Assembly: GCA_016210175.1 (NCBI GenBank) | Contig: JACQUQ010000203.1 | Span: 1-47,402 of the forward strand | Reading direction: 5' to 3' | DNA: 47,402 nt | From: Chloroflexota bacterium | GTDB taxonomy: Bacteria; Chloroflexota; Dehalococcoidia; SHYD01; JACQUQ01 | Shown: one piece after another, positions 31,598 through 40,401 of the stretch | How the letters are laid out: the number at the start of each line of letters is the position of its first letter | Numbering within the stretch: position 1 is the first letter of the stretch | Position numbers and translations under genes: made by a program | The notes under the pieces: model-generated | The model's input: the letters and a program-made list of their open reading frames with translations, nothing else | What the model was told of the DNA's origin: nothing | Database searches by the model: none

Positions 31598-31747
31598 CAG
31601 CGCACCCGCCGGCCGGTCGCTCTCCTGGGCGAGGCACACGATGGGGCGGGTCGTCGCCCCCCGGCTCCCACAGCCGGGAGGGGTTCCCGAGGGTGAGGGC
31701 CGTGCAGCCCCCCAGGGGGGAGCGTGCAGCAGTACCGCGCGGGGTGC

Positions 31748-31772
31748 GGGTGCCCCCTACGATTGTGCAGGG
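31748..31772 (+). repeat. Left terminal inverted repeat of the IS
   Basis: It begins GGGTGCCCCCTACGATTGTG and ends GCAGG-G; the reverse complement of the right end differs at two positions only. Confidence 0.85.
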
Positions 31773-33191
31773 TTGGCGTGGGGCGGACGGGGCCGGTAGC
31801 ATGGGAGGAGCGGCATCTTCTGCGTGGGGTGGGGCCGATGGAACGGGAGCCGTTCGGTGCGCCTTGGGAGCGGATGATCGCGGAGGTGCTGACGGGGAGG
31901 TGCGACTGGCGCACCGCCCACCCGAACGCCACCTTCGCCGAACTCGCGGCCGCGGTCGACGAGCGTCTAGACCGCGTGCGGGCACGCCGGCGGGAAGAAG
32001 CGGCGCTGACCAGCCGCAGCACTGACCTGGCGGAGGCGTCCGTGGGGGAGCGTCCGGCCTGTCCGCACTGCGGGCGGCGGATGGTGGTACGGGGGCAGCA
32101 GGAGACCGCCCGCAGGCGGACCGAGGAAGCGGGAGCGGCGCCAGGTCGCATCCAGGAGGACGAGGTGGCGCCGCGGGAGCGGGAGGTGCCGGAGGGGCCG
32201 CACGGGCTGGCGGTGCCGCAGTTGAGCATGGCTGGGACCTTGGTGCCGCTGCTGCACCGCCAGTGGGCCGCGGTCAAGCGGTTGGCGGTGGGGACGGTGC
32301 GCTACGGGACCGACCGCGACCGACAGCCGGTGGTGCGTCCCGCAGAGCTTGCCTCTTGCCCGCGGCTGATGGATGCCCAGCCGTGCAGTGGGCTGGCGCT
32401 GGGGGAACGGCACCAGCCGGGCACTCCCACGGCTGGGGTCGTGTGCGCCGTAGGTGACGGGGCGGCGTGGCGGCACGGCGTGGTCGCTGAGCACCGACCG
32501 GATGCGGTGCGCATGCTCGACTTTGCCCCTGCAGCGGAGCACCTGGGACGGGCCGCCCGTGCGGTGTGGGGCGCGGGCAGCGCCGCCGGGCGCGAGTGGG
32601 TGGGGGTGCCGTGGCGCCACCGCAAGCACGGTGACCCCGAGACGGTGCTGGCAGCGCTGCGGACCTGGCCGGTGGCCCAGGCGCCCGCCCCCAGCGCGGC
32701 GGTGGCGGTGCGGGACGAGGTGGTGGCCTACTGCGAGCAACGGCGGGAGCAGATCGCGTACGCCCGCTTCATAGCGCAGGGGTACCCGATGGGCAGCGGC
32801 ATCGTGGAGAGCGCCAACCAACTGGTGGTGGCAGCGCGGCTCAAAGGCAGCGGGCGGTACTGGGCGCGGGCCAACGTCACCCCGCTGCTGGGGCTGCGCA
32901 GCGTGGCCTGCAATGACCGCTGGGGGCAGGCGTGGCCGCGGATCAGCGGTGCGGTGCGGCGACCGGCAGCACCGCAGCGGGGGGAGCAGCAGCGCCAGCG
33001 TCATGCGGCACGGCGGGCAGCCCGTCCTGCGCCCATGCCGGCCCCCATGCGCCTCCCTGCTGCGGAGCCACGGCCGGTCACCGCCGTGGGGCCCCCCAGC
33101 GAGCGACCGCAGCAGGGAGGCAACGGGGGGCCGACGGCCGAGCACCCCTGGAAGCGCACGGTCTCGTCCTCCCAGCGACGCCCCACCCCCT

Positions 33192-33216
33192 CCCTGCAAA
33201 ATCATAGGGGGCACCC
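33192..33216 (-). repeat. Right terminal inverted repeat of the IS
   Basis: Reverse complement of the left end with two mismatches. The repeat ends 131 bases before selC. Confidence 0.85.
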
Positions 33217-33230
33217 CAACGCGTGGGGGC

Positions 33231-33259
33231 TTTTAGCCCCCATCCCCATGTGCTATACT
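33231..33259 (+). promoter_or_regulatory. Putative selC promoter (extended -10)
   Basis: TG-C-TATACT (33251-33259) forms an extended -10, with a poor -35 (TTTTAG at 33231-33236, 17-base spacer). Transcription would start near 33266, about 80 bases before the mature tRNA. It lies just outside the right end of the IS. Confidence 0.45.
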
Positions 33260-33347
33260 GGCACCCGGTCCTCGGCTCGGCGCTCGTGGGCAAACCGTGG
33301 TCACGGGGCGTCGGATGAGCTAGGTGCTGGAGCAGGGATCGTTCCTG

Positions 33348-33445
33348 GGGAGTGGAGGGGTCCCGGTGGGCCTCGCGGTCTTCAAAACCGTTGCGGGGGC
33401 GCCCGCGCGTTCCCGGGTGAGTTCGACTCTCACGCACTCCCGCCA
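33348..33445 (+). tRNA. selC: Selenocysteine tRNA, tRNA-Sec(UCA)
   Basis: 98 nt including an encoded CCA. The acceptor GGGAGTGG (33348-33355) faces GCACTCCC (33434-33441): seven pairs and a terminal mismatch, in the 8-position acceptor arm typical of bacterial tRNA-Sec. A 2-nt linker AG is followed by a 6-bp D stem GGGTCC/GGGCCT with a 4-nt CGGT loop, a hallmark of Sec tRNA. The anticodon arm is GCGGT-CTTCAAA-ACCGT, with anticodon TCA at 33382-33384. A long extra arm of about 24 nt follows. The T arm is GTGAG-TTCGACT-CTCAC (33417-33433) and the discriminator is G33442. It lets the cell insert Sec at UGA with SelB and a SECIS element; none of selA, selB or selD is in the window. Confidence 0.95.
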
Positions 33446-33466
33446 ACCCTGACTACCAATAGCGCA

Positions 33467-33503
33467 CAAGGCCCGTCCCTGCTGGAGCGGGCCTTGGTGT
33501 TTT
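33467..33503 (+). terminator. Intrinsic terminator of selC
   Basis: CAAGGCCCG (33467-33475) pairs perfectly with CGGGCCTTG (33488-33496) around a 12-nt loop, then GTGTTTT. It lies 21 bases after the CCA end. Confidence 0.8.
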
Positions 33504-33569
33504 CCCCGCAACGCTTACCCCAACCCAGCTTTCGCTTTCACCCCGTTCAGCGCGTTGCAACACCGTGTG

Positions 33570-35540
33570 CTACGGCTCTGCGGTGAACACGTCCCACCGC
33601 AGGGCGGCCCGCTCCACGATAGGCTCTACGTCCTCCTCCAACAGGTAGCGCTGTGCCACCAACTCCAGGGCGGCCTGGCGCACGCGCTCCAGGTACGCTT
33701 CCTTGGAGGCATACCGCTCCGCAATGGCGCGACGCGGGTCGCCGGTCGCCTGGCGCTCCGCTGCCGTCCGGGGGAAGGGGAGCGTCGCGCCTGCCATCGG
33801 GACCCATTCACCGGGTGCGCCGACCTCAGGATGGCGCACGTTCCATCCAGTGTAGGTCGCCAACGGCACACTGAGGTCGGGCAGACGGGTGCCCGCCACC
33901 TCGTTGCCGTCCGGGTCCACCGCCGGCACGAACCCGGGATAGCGTGGACCCGCTGCGGGAGGTAACTGGTGCAGCACACCCTGGGCGGTCTCCGGTCCGA
34001 AGTCCAAGCGCCGGTTCTGCGGCAGATGGGCCGGGACCTGGACCCCCGGCAGCGTCTGGAAGAGAGCGAGGACCCCCTCAGGCGGAACGGCAGTCCCATT
34101 ATCCAGGCGGGGGTGCTGGCTGGGCGGCGGCTCCTGGCCGGTACGCACCCAGCGGTCCAGGTTGACGAGCGCCGCCCGCAGGAGGGGGCCGTAATCGACG
34201 CTATTGGCAGCATGGTAGAGCCGGACCCCGGACGGGTTGGTAGCCTCGGGCGGCAGCGTGCCGGCCACATGCTGGGTGCCTGCCAGCAGGTAGATGCGGG
34301 CCATCTCCATAGGCTCCAGGTCGCGGGTCCCCTCGATATCCGTGTGGAGGAGCGAGGCCTGGCCGCTGCCCCAGTACTCCGCCGCAGTGTTTACGGTGAA
34401 GATCCTGGGCAGCTTGCCGCGGGCAGCGAGCCGGGCCAGCAGCCCATCGGTCTGGCCGGTGACCGGGTCTGTCTGCACGGCATCACTGAAGGGGAACAGG
34501 GCGCCCACGGTCTGCCCATGGGCCTTCGAGGGCTGGCCGAAGCGCAGGTTGAACTCGCCCCGCCGCGCCCCGGCGATGTGGGGGATGAGGCCATCGAAGA
34601 CCATGCGCCCCTGCTCGTCTTCATTCAGGCCCAGGTAGAGGAACTGGCGCAGAAAGCGCCCACTTTGCGAGGCGCCGAAGCCGTAGGCGTAGCGGACGGT
34701 CCCTGCGCACGGATTGCCCGCCGTCGCGTCCCCATACTTGAGCCAGGCCACCACGTCCCGCACGGCTAGGAGCCCGGCGCCCACCACCGGGGCGCCCTGG
34801 GCCGTATAGACCAGCTCATAGAGCTTGCCCGGCTCGAAGCCGGTGGCAAGGGAGATGTGCGCAGGGTCAGGGACAGGCCGGCCGTCCTCAAACCGGGCGA
34901 ACTGCCACTGGTTGCGGGCGATCACCTGCCGCGGGGCGTCCAGGTGCTCCCGGACGGTGAGGACGGCGGTCGGCTCATTGAGGTCCTGGGCAGGGTAGGG
35001 GCGATGGTCCCGGTCGGAGAGCAGTAGCACCCGCACCGGCCGGTCGGGTTGGAACTCGCAGAGGATGGGACCGGTGACCGGCACGCCGTCCCGGAGCGCT
35101 TCCGGTGCCTGGAAGGCCATCAGCCCCGGTTGGGACGGCACGTCGTGCTGCCAGCCACACCAGGCGACGGTGTAGCCCTGGCGCAGGAGGAAGCCGTTGC
35201 CCAGGTCAGGGTCCATTGCTGTGGCGGAACTGGCCGCGGCCGCATTGAACTGGCGCAGCGCCAACTTGCGCCCCCGGTTCAGGACGTCAAAGAGCAAACG
35301 ACCGGCGCCGCGCCCAGGATCGACCGGCCGCATGAGCGCGAAGTCGGCGGTGACGTGTACCCGGCCGTCCTCCCCGCGCGGGGCAAGCTTCAGGTCGGTT
35401 ATGGCGGTGTTCGCCGGGTGGTCCGGGTCTACCGCCAGGCCGACCGTGCCCACCAGATACTCGTAGGGACCAGCGGCACCAAAGGCTTGACCGTTCGCGA
35501 GCATGGCCCGGCGGGTGACCTCCAGGTGCGTGATAGCCAT
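33570..35540 (-). CDS. Alpha/beta hydrolase-domain protein (Abhydrolase_10-like)
   Basis: A 656-residue protein of the large alpha/beta-hydrolase domain family (PF20091-like). The nucleophile elbow is YGFGASQSGRFLRQFLYLGLN, with Ser in GASQSG; GARRGEFNLRFGQPS and TNTAAEYWGSGQASLLHT-like segments are family features. The N-terminal MAITHLEVTRRAMLANGQAFGAAGPYEYL is typical, and there is no signal peptide. Substrates of the family are poorly known; esterase or lactonase action is plausible. AAAGGGGGAG lies just upstream of the start on the minus strand. It converges on selC from the other side and is not obviously linked to the CoA cluster. Confidence 0.85.
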   Translation of the reverse strand: MAITHLEVTRRAMLANGQAFGAAGPYEYLVGTVGLAVDPDHPANTAITDLKLAPRGEDGRVHVTADFALMRPVDPGRGAGRLLFDVLNRGRKLALRQFNAAAASSATAMDPDLGNGFLLRQGYTVAWCGWQHDVPSQPGLMAFQAPEALRDGVPVTGPILCEFQPDRPVRVLLLSDRDHRPYPAQDLNEPTAVLTVREHLDAPRQVIARNQWQFARFEDGRPVPDPAHISLATGFEPGKLYELVYTAQGAPVVGAGLLAVRDVVAWLKYGDATAGNPCAGTVRYAYGFGASQSGRFLRQFLYLGLNEDEQGRMVFDGLIPHIAGARRGEFNLRFGQPSKAHGQTVGALFPFSDAVQTDPVTGQTDGLLARLAARGKLPRIFTVNTAAEYWGSGQASLLHTDIEGTRDLEPMEMARIYLLAGTQHVAGTLPPEATNPSGVRLYHAANSVDYGPLLRAALVNLDRWVRTGQEPPPSQHPRLDNGTAVPPEGVLALFQTLPGVQVPAHLPQNRRLDFGPETAQGVLHQLPPAAGPRYPGFVPAVDPDGNEVAGTRLPDLSVPLATYTGWNVRHPEVGAPGEWVPMAGATLPFPRTAAERQATGDPRRAIAERYASKEAYLERVRQAALELVAQRYLLEEDVEPIVERAALRWDVFTAEP

Positions 35541-39123: not shown

Positions 39124-40401
39124 TCAGCGGCCTGCCGGACTCATCCGGTACTCCTCCACCGGGGCCAGGGGGACGTTGCCAATGATCCCCTTCTGTTCCA
39201 GCTCTTGGACCTGCTCCTCCGAGAGCTTCAGCAACTCGTGCAACACATACGTGGTATGCTGCCCGAGCAGGGGGGCAGGCAGCCGCGTGGTGTTGGGTGT
39301 CTTGGTGAGCCGCACCGGGTGGCCCTGGTAGCGGTGCGTCCCCGCTTCGGGGTGGGTCACCGTCTCAAAGTACCCCCGTGCGGCCAGGTGCGGGTCCTCC
39401 AGCAACTCCTCTGCGTTCAGCACCGCCCCCGCGGGAATGCCCGCCCCCTGGAGCAGTGCCATCGCTTCATAGTGGCTGCGCTGGCTGGTCCAGGCCTCGA
39501 TGACCTCCTGCAACTCCGCGGCGTGCCGGTGGCGTGCCAGGCTGTCGGCAAACCGGGGGGCGTCCGCCAGGTCGGGACGCTCCAGCAGGCGACAGAGGGC
39601 GCGCCACTGCTGGTCGGTGCCCACGGCCAGCGTCACCCAGGCATCCTCACCCCGGCAGCGGTAGGCGCCGTGGGGCGCCATGGCAGGGTGGCGGTTCCCC
39701 TGGGGACCCCAGATGCGCCCGTTCATGGTGTAGTCCAGGATGGCCTCGCCCAGGAAGCTGGCCACCATCTGCCGCTGGGACACGTCGATATAGACTCCCT
39801 GGCCGGTGCGCTGGCGGGAGAACAGAGCGGTCAGCACCGCCCCGGCCCCAGTGAGCGCACCCATGGGGTCCGGGTAGCCGACGCTCAGGGAAGGCGGCTC
39901 GTCCGGGTAACCGCTGATGCCGGTTAGACCCCCCAGTTCGCCCACGATATTGGCTACGGACACGTAGTCGCGCTCCGGCCCTGTCATGCCCTGGCTGGCC
40001 AGGGAGATCATGATAAGCTGAGGGTTAACCTCCCGCAGCGCCTCGTACCCCAGCCCGAAGCCGTCCATGACCCGTGCGCTGAAGTTCTCCAGCACCACGT
40101 CGCTGACTTTGACCAGGTCTTTGAAGAGGGCAGCGCCTTCGGGGGCGGTGAGGTCCAGGGTGATACCCAGCTTATTGCGGTTGCGCTCGTTGATCATGCC
40201 GGAGCGGTTCCAGGGCCGCGCCCCGGGGTCCCGGTCGGGGAACAGGCCGCGAGGCAACACCCGCAGCGGGTCCGGGCGCCGGGCAGACTCGACCTTGATG
40301 ACTTCTGCGCCCAGGTCTCCCAGGAGGCGGCCGGCGTAGGGGCCGGCCCAGAACATCCCCAGGTCCACCACGCGCACACTGGTCAGCGGTAACGCTCCCA
40401 T
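39124..40401 (-). CDS. Class III CoA-transferase (CaiB/BaiF), catalytic-type subunit
   Basis: A 425-residue family III CoA-transferase. It shows VVDLGMFWAGPYAGRLLGDLGAEVIKVE, NRNKLGITLDL and DVVLENFSARVMDGFGL, all typical. The catalytic Asp, which forms acyl-aspartyl anhydrides in formyl-CoA transferase, aligns with D178 (GYPDPMGAL). GGGAGGAG precedes the ATG. It lies next to a second family III gene, 26 bases downstream of it, in the manner of heteromeric enzymes such as benzylsuccinate CoA-transferase (BbsEF). The acyl acceptor is unknown; the transporter genes upstream suggest an imported acid. Confidence 0.93.
   Translation of the reverse strand: MGALPLTSVRVVDLGMFWAGPYAGRLLGDLGAEVIKVESARRPDPLRVLPRGLFPDRDPGARPWNRSGMINERNRNKLGITLDLTAPEGAALFKDLVKVSDVVLENFSARVMDGFGLGYEALREVNPQLIMISLASQGMTGPERDYVSVANIVGELGGLTGISGYPDEPPSLSVGYPDPMGALTGAGAVLTALFSRQRTGQGVYIDVSQRQMVASFLGEAILDYTMNGRIWGPQGNRHPAMAPHGAYRCRGEDAWVTLAVGTDQQWRALCRLLERPDLADAPRFADSLARHRHAAELQEVIEAWTSQRSHYEAMALLQGAGIPAGAVLNAEELLEDPHLAARGYFETVTHPEAGTHRYQGHPVRLTKTPNTTRLPAPLLGQHTTYVLHELLKLSEEQVQELEQKGIIGNVPLAPVEEYRMSPAGR

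Follow-up and report, generated by a model that had tools for sequence, protein, structure and literature searches.

A selenocysteine tRNA gene with a G-G eighth acceptor pair, and selenocysteine-decoding genes on other contigs of the same Chloroflexota draft genome

Introduction

Does a selenocysteine tRNA gene with no other sel gene in view, and with a mismatched pair in its acceptor arm, serve a working selenocysteine (Sec) pathway? The stretch of DNA that raises this question, called the window here, comprises 47,402 nucleotides from a Chloroflexota bacterium. It forms contig 175 of a draft genome of 3.47 Mb, which consists of 274 contigs and is 91% complete with an estimated contamination of 6.6%. 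In the bacterial pathway, SerRS charges the tRNA with serine, SelA converts it with selenophosphate made by SelD, and SelB delivers the product to UGA codons with a SECIS element (PMC13188914). An initial annotation, made from the window alone, had identified the tRNA, concluded that the host decodes UGA as selenocysteine and called the G-G pair unusual.

Results

Identity and structure of the tRNA

ARAGORN called one tRNA in the window, a tRNA-SeC at 33346-33445 with the anticodon TCA. The Rfam model RF01852 matched positions 33348-33441 over 91 of its 91 model positions, with a score of 70.4 bits (E 1.7e-12). The gathering cut-off is 47 bits, and nothing else in the window reached an Rfam gathering score. 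The tRNA-Sec identity proposed in the initial annotation is therefore borne out by both programs, and the covariance score, which it had offered as a means of refutation, lies above the threshold.

The mature gene spans 98 nt on the forward strand (33348-33445), has its anticodon at 33382-33384 and ends in G73 and an encoded CCA. The 5' acceptor strand GGGAGTGG (33348-33355) faces GCACTCCC at 33434-33441. Reading of the sequence gave seven standard pairs (GGGAGTG/CACTCCC), with G8 opposite a G next to them, followed by a T stem of 5 bp (GTGAG/CTCAC). A two-base linker leads from the acceptor to a 6-bp D stem closed by the loop CGGT. The anticodon loop is CTTCAAA, and the long extra arm has 9 bp in the predicted fold. 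An unconstrained RNA fold returned the same layout. All structural features listed at the outset (anticodon TCA, eight-position acceptor, 6-bp D stem with a 4-nt loop, long extra arm, CCA), including the G-G at the eighth position, were found in the sequence; the C·U mismatch that forms the first pair of the six-position anticodon stem had not been mentioned. Read in this way, the acceptor/T arm is of the 8+5 type, its 13 layers consisting of 12 standard pairs and one G-G. The Rfam alignment places the same bases in an alternative register, with seven pairs and a bulged G, and G8 pairing into the T stem.

The gene resembles E. coli selC and the 8/5 fold of RF01852 in its arm lengths, UCA anticodon, G73, encoded CCA and CGGT D loop. 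The eighth acceptor pair differs, being C-G in E. coli selC and G-G in the window and in most of the sampled relatives of its class. The 7/5 and bulged tRNA-Sec variants (PMC5330540) likewise form no more than 12 standard pairs along the acceptor and T-stem arm, but they reach this number through a missing nucleotide or a bulge, whereas the window tRNA has eight positions on both strands and one mismatch. The locus is an ordinary bacterial tRNA-Sec gene of an already known kind.

The eighth acceptor pair in related genes

We compared the eighth pair in 64 distinct tRNA-Sec genes from 38 families, namely that of the window and 63 more, which come from other genomes in the class. The sample is non-random, as the 30 top-scoring loci were taken first and the remainder were picked from the listed matches. 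The extraction rule called for standard pairing throughout acceptor positions 1-7 and for four or more such pairs in the T stem, and left position 8 free. Because the rule required it, the pairing seen at acceptor positions 1-7 and in the T stem is partly by construction. The rule would also miss tRNA-Sec genes of the 7/5 fold, which have been reported for one Dehalogenimonas species (PMC5330540).

Position 8 was G-G in 40 genes, G-A in four and A-G in one, so that all 45 mismatched pairs among the 64 genes belong to these three types. The other 19 genes carry a standard pair (G-C in eight, A-T in seven, C-G in two, and T-A and G-T in one each). The presence of several standard pair types in other families suggests that the eighth position is a genuine pair layer. 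Of the 38 families, 24 have members with G-G, and in the window's own order every one of the four tRNA-Sec genes examined carries it. A pattern scan in which G-G was fixed hit at least 117 contigs of named genomes, belonging mainly to Chloroflexota and Planctomycetota, with a few others among the matches listed. These counts of genes, families and contigs make the mismatch a common variant. Its description as unusual did not survive the comparison: judged from the sampled sequences, the lineage commonly carries G-G at this position, and an anomaly is ruled out by the frequency of the mismatch in genes and families and by its presence in Planctomycetota. We met no description of a G-G pair in tRNA-Sec in the literature searched, which does not prove novelty.

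Selenocysteine machinery in the draft genome

No sel gene is apparent in the window, as the initial annotation had stated. Searches of the draft genome located selA on contig C126 (561.7 bits; curated cut-off 267.9), selB on C272 (356.5 bits; cut-off 242.25) and selD on C109 (381.6 bits; cut-off 125). The three genes that the Sec-decoding trait calls for are thus in the same genome, and their complete absence, which would have spoken against the tRNA, was not what the search returned. The sel genes are not adjacent to selC. Their location on other contigs means that the impression of a tRNA without other sel genes arose from the small size of the window, and the orphan status that it implied is ruled out. 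The G+C contents of the tRNA contig and the sel contigs agree (67–70%), and these contigs likely belong to one genome, within a draft bin whose estimated contamination was given above.

RF01852 was also run over the whole draft genome, where the window tRNA-Sec was the only match above the cut-off. Its closest relative, at 91% identity, comes from a sampled genome of the same order. Three of the four other genomes sampled from this order have a tRNA-Sec above the cut-off; the fourth is only about 57% complete.

Around the sel genes, Rfam searches at loose thresholds gave only low-complexity chance matches. Upstream of selD (L010:1362-1454) lies a palindromic stretch, rich in G+C, of the CCCTCTCC...GCAGGGGAGAGGGG type. 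Translations resembling it recur in frames of the window, which suggests a dispersed palindromic repeat.

Selenoprotein genes and SECIS hairpins

The initial annotation had warned that in-frame TGA codons in this genome should be checked before being read as stops, and had advised a search for a formate dehydrogenase gene with such a codon and a SECIS hairpin. The warning was warranted for two genes, and the search yielded one formate dehydrogenase. Within the selD frame there is one in-frame TGA, and it occupies the known position in the active site (RLTTLASCAG-U-AAKFSPADL). One TGA is also present in the gene of a formate dehydrogenase alpha subunit (FdhA) on contig C154 (NIDSCNRT-U-HAPSVVG), and three further formate-dehydrogenase-like genes of the genome have no internal stop. 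In both FdhA and E. coli FdhF (NNVDCCARV-U-HGPSVAG), the UGA is followed by His at the active site.

Each UGA is followed by a predicted hairpin. The one in selD lies 32 nt downstream and has an 8-bp stem and the loop CGUGC (−10.6 kcal/mol); the one in the FdhA gene lies 18 nt downstream, with a 6-bp stem and the loop GGUCU (−6.8 kcal/mol). Both the loop letters GGUCU and the 18-nt spacing recur in E. coli fdhF. In the published bSECIS model, a G is required within the first two positions of the loop, together with a spacing of 16–37 nt and an energy of −7.5 kcal/mol or lower (PMC13188914). Both genes thus combine an in-frame UGA at a known Sec position with a downstream SECIS-like hairpin, although the FdhA hairpin slightly misses the energy limit. 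As a control, all TGAs in the window were held against this limit, and 14% of them have a hairpin that passes it by chance, so the hairpins alone are weak evidence. The case for the two selenoproteins draws its weight from the residue positions and from the homologous families.

In the window itself, a composition-based scan for frames that continue through a TGA returned one site, at 39126 on the reverse strand. The translations identify it as a stop/start junction that separates two full-length genes, one CoA-transferase-like and the other enoyl-CoA-hydratase-like, the latter having its own ATG. This only candidate for a selenoprotein gene in the window was rejected, the TGA being an ordinary stop between two complete genes.

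A split formate dehydrogenase

The formate dehydrogenase on C154 is divided into two genes (L247:2456-8266). The catalytic part (634 aa) carries the Sec TGA and is devoid of the Fe4S4 N-terminal domain. Unlike in E. coli fdhF, this domain has a gene of its own, which contains NuoG-like ferredoxin domains and lies two genes downstream of the catalytic part, after a NuoEF fusion and ahead of fdhD. Genome G022 (L245:2462-7112) has the first three genes in the same order, with a catalytic part that is 78% identical, and genome G089 of the same order of bacteria has a fragment with the TGA at 74–76% identity. The shared gene order and the TGA-containing fragment make a misassembly unlikely. In many other members of the class, formate dehydrogenase is encoded in a single frame, roughly 900 aa long or longer. 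The split enzyme may merit separate study.

Neighbourhood of the tRNA

An insertion-sequence-like element on the forward strand (31748-33216) is bounded by 38-nt inverted repeats (31748-31785 and 33179-33216) that are 87% complementary. It ends 131 bp upstream of the tRNA and does not belong to the Sec system. A frameshift seems to interrupt its main frames. Partial copies are present on contigs C260, C151 and C22, the longest at 93% identity. A long frame at 31724-33586, which overlaps the element and the tRNA, had no Pfam match. Downstream of the tRNA, a forward-strand hairpin with a T-rich tail (33472-33499, scanner stem 33478-33491) resembles an intrinsic terminator by consensus match only; the scanned stretch held two such hairpins against 0.5 expected. 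No promoter passed the consensus scan. An alpha/beta-hydrolase gene (Pfam Abhydrolase_10) at 33570-35540 on the reverse strand converges on the tRNA, its stop being about 125 bp from the tRNA 3' end.

Discussion

The locus is almost certainly the single selC gene of this genome, served by SelA, SelD and SelB from other contigs in the decoding of UGA in at least two mRNAs, which supports the initial proposal that the host decodes this codon as selenocysteine. SerRS would charge the selC transcript with serine. SelA would convert the Ser-tRNA into Sec-tRNA with selenophosphate from SelD, and SelB would then bring it to UGA codons that are followed by a SECIS hairpin. The messages decoded would be at least those of selD itself and of the formate dehydrogenase alpha subunit. 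What the sequences show is the tRNA, the three genes and two in-frame UGAs that sit at known Sec positions and have hairpins; charging, conversion and decoding we infer from the pathway established in bacteria. In the tRNA, the G-G presumably fits between the seven acceptor pairs and the five T-stem pairs, so that the 13-layer arm is kept.

With the bin carrying some estimated contamination, the tRNA contig might come from another Sec-decoding bacterium through a binning error. This is very unlikely: the nearest tRNA-Sec relative belongs to the same order, no other tRNA-Sec in the bin scores above the cut-off, the G+C content of the contig agrees with that of the sel contigs, and the insertion element next to the tRNA has partial copies on other contigs of the bin.

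It is still less probable that the gene encodes a selenocysteine-like tRNA that serves a different function, for instance a selC* tRNA-Cys or an allo-tRNA, which would share the long arms and carry another amino acid. tRNAs of this sort are known, some of them with UCA anticodons, but those described adopt an 8/4 or 9/3 fold and the selC* tRNA-Cys group has U73 (PMC7609411). The window tRNA has a 5-bp T stem, G73 and a full-length match to the tRNA-Sec model, and its genome holds the complete sel set together with UGA-containing selenoprotein genes.

That the tRNA is a decaying orphan in a lineage that lost Sec decoding, as the G-G pair, the window empty of sel genes and the nearby insertion element might hint, is scarcely credible given selA, selB, selD and two UGA genes in the genome, a G-G shared by most sampled families, and remaining acceptor and T-stem pairs and a CCA that are all intact.

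The selC reading thus stands, and the tRNA-Sec at 33348-33445 is genuine and, in all likelihood, functional. A more speculative idea, which we consider possible but doubtful, is that this Chloroflexota class and, in parallel, Planctomycetota have as a rule a purine–purine mismatch, mostly G-G, at the eighth pair. The mismatch would then be a structural variant under selection within the 13-layer arm, and SelB or SelA may have changed to fit it. When tRNA-Sec genes are screened in Chloroflexota or Planctomycetota, a mismatched eighth pair should not be read as a sign of decay. For the uncultured lineage studied here, the findings indicate that UGA is decoded as selenocysteine, and gene callers will accordingly truncate its selD and one formate dehydrogenase.
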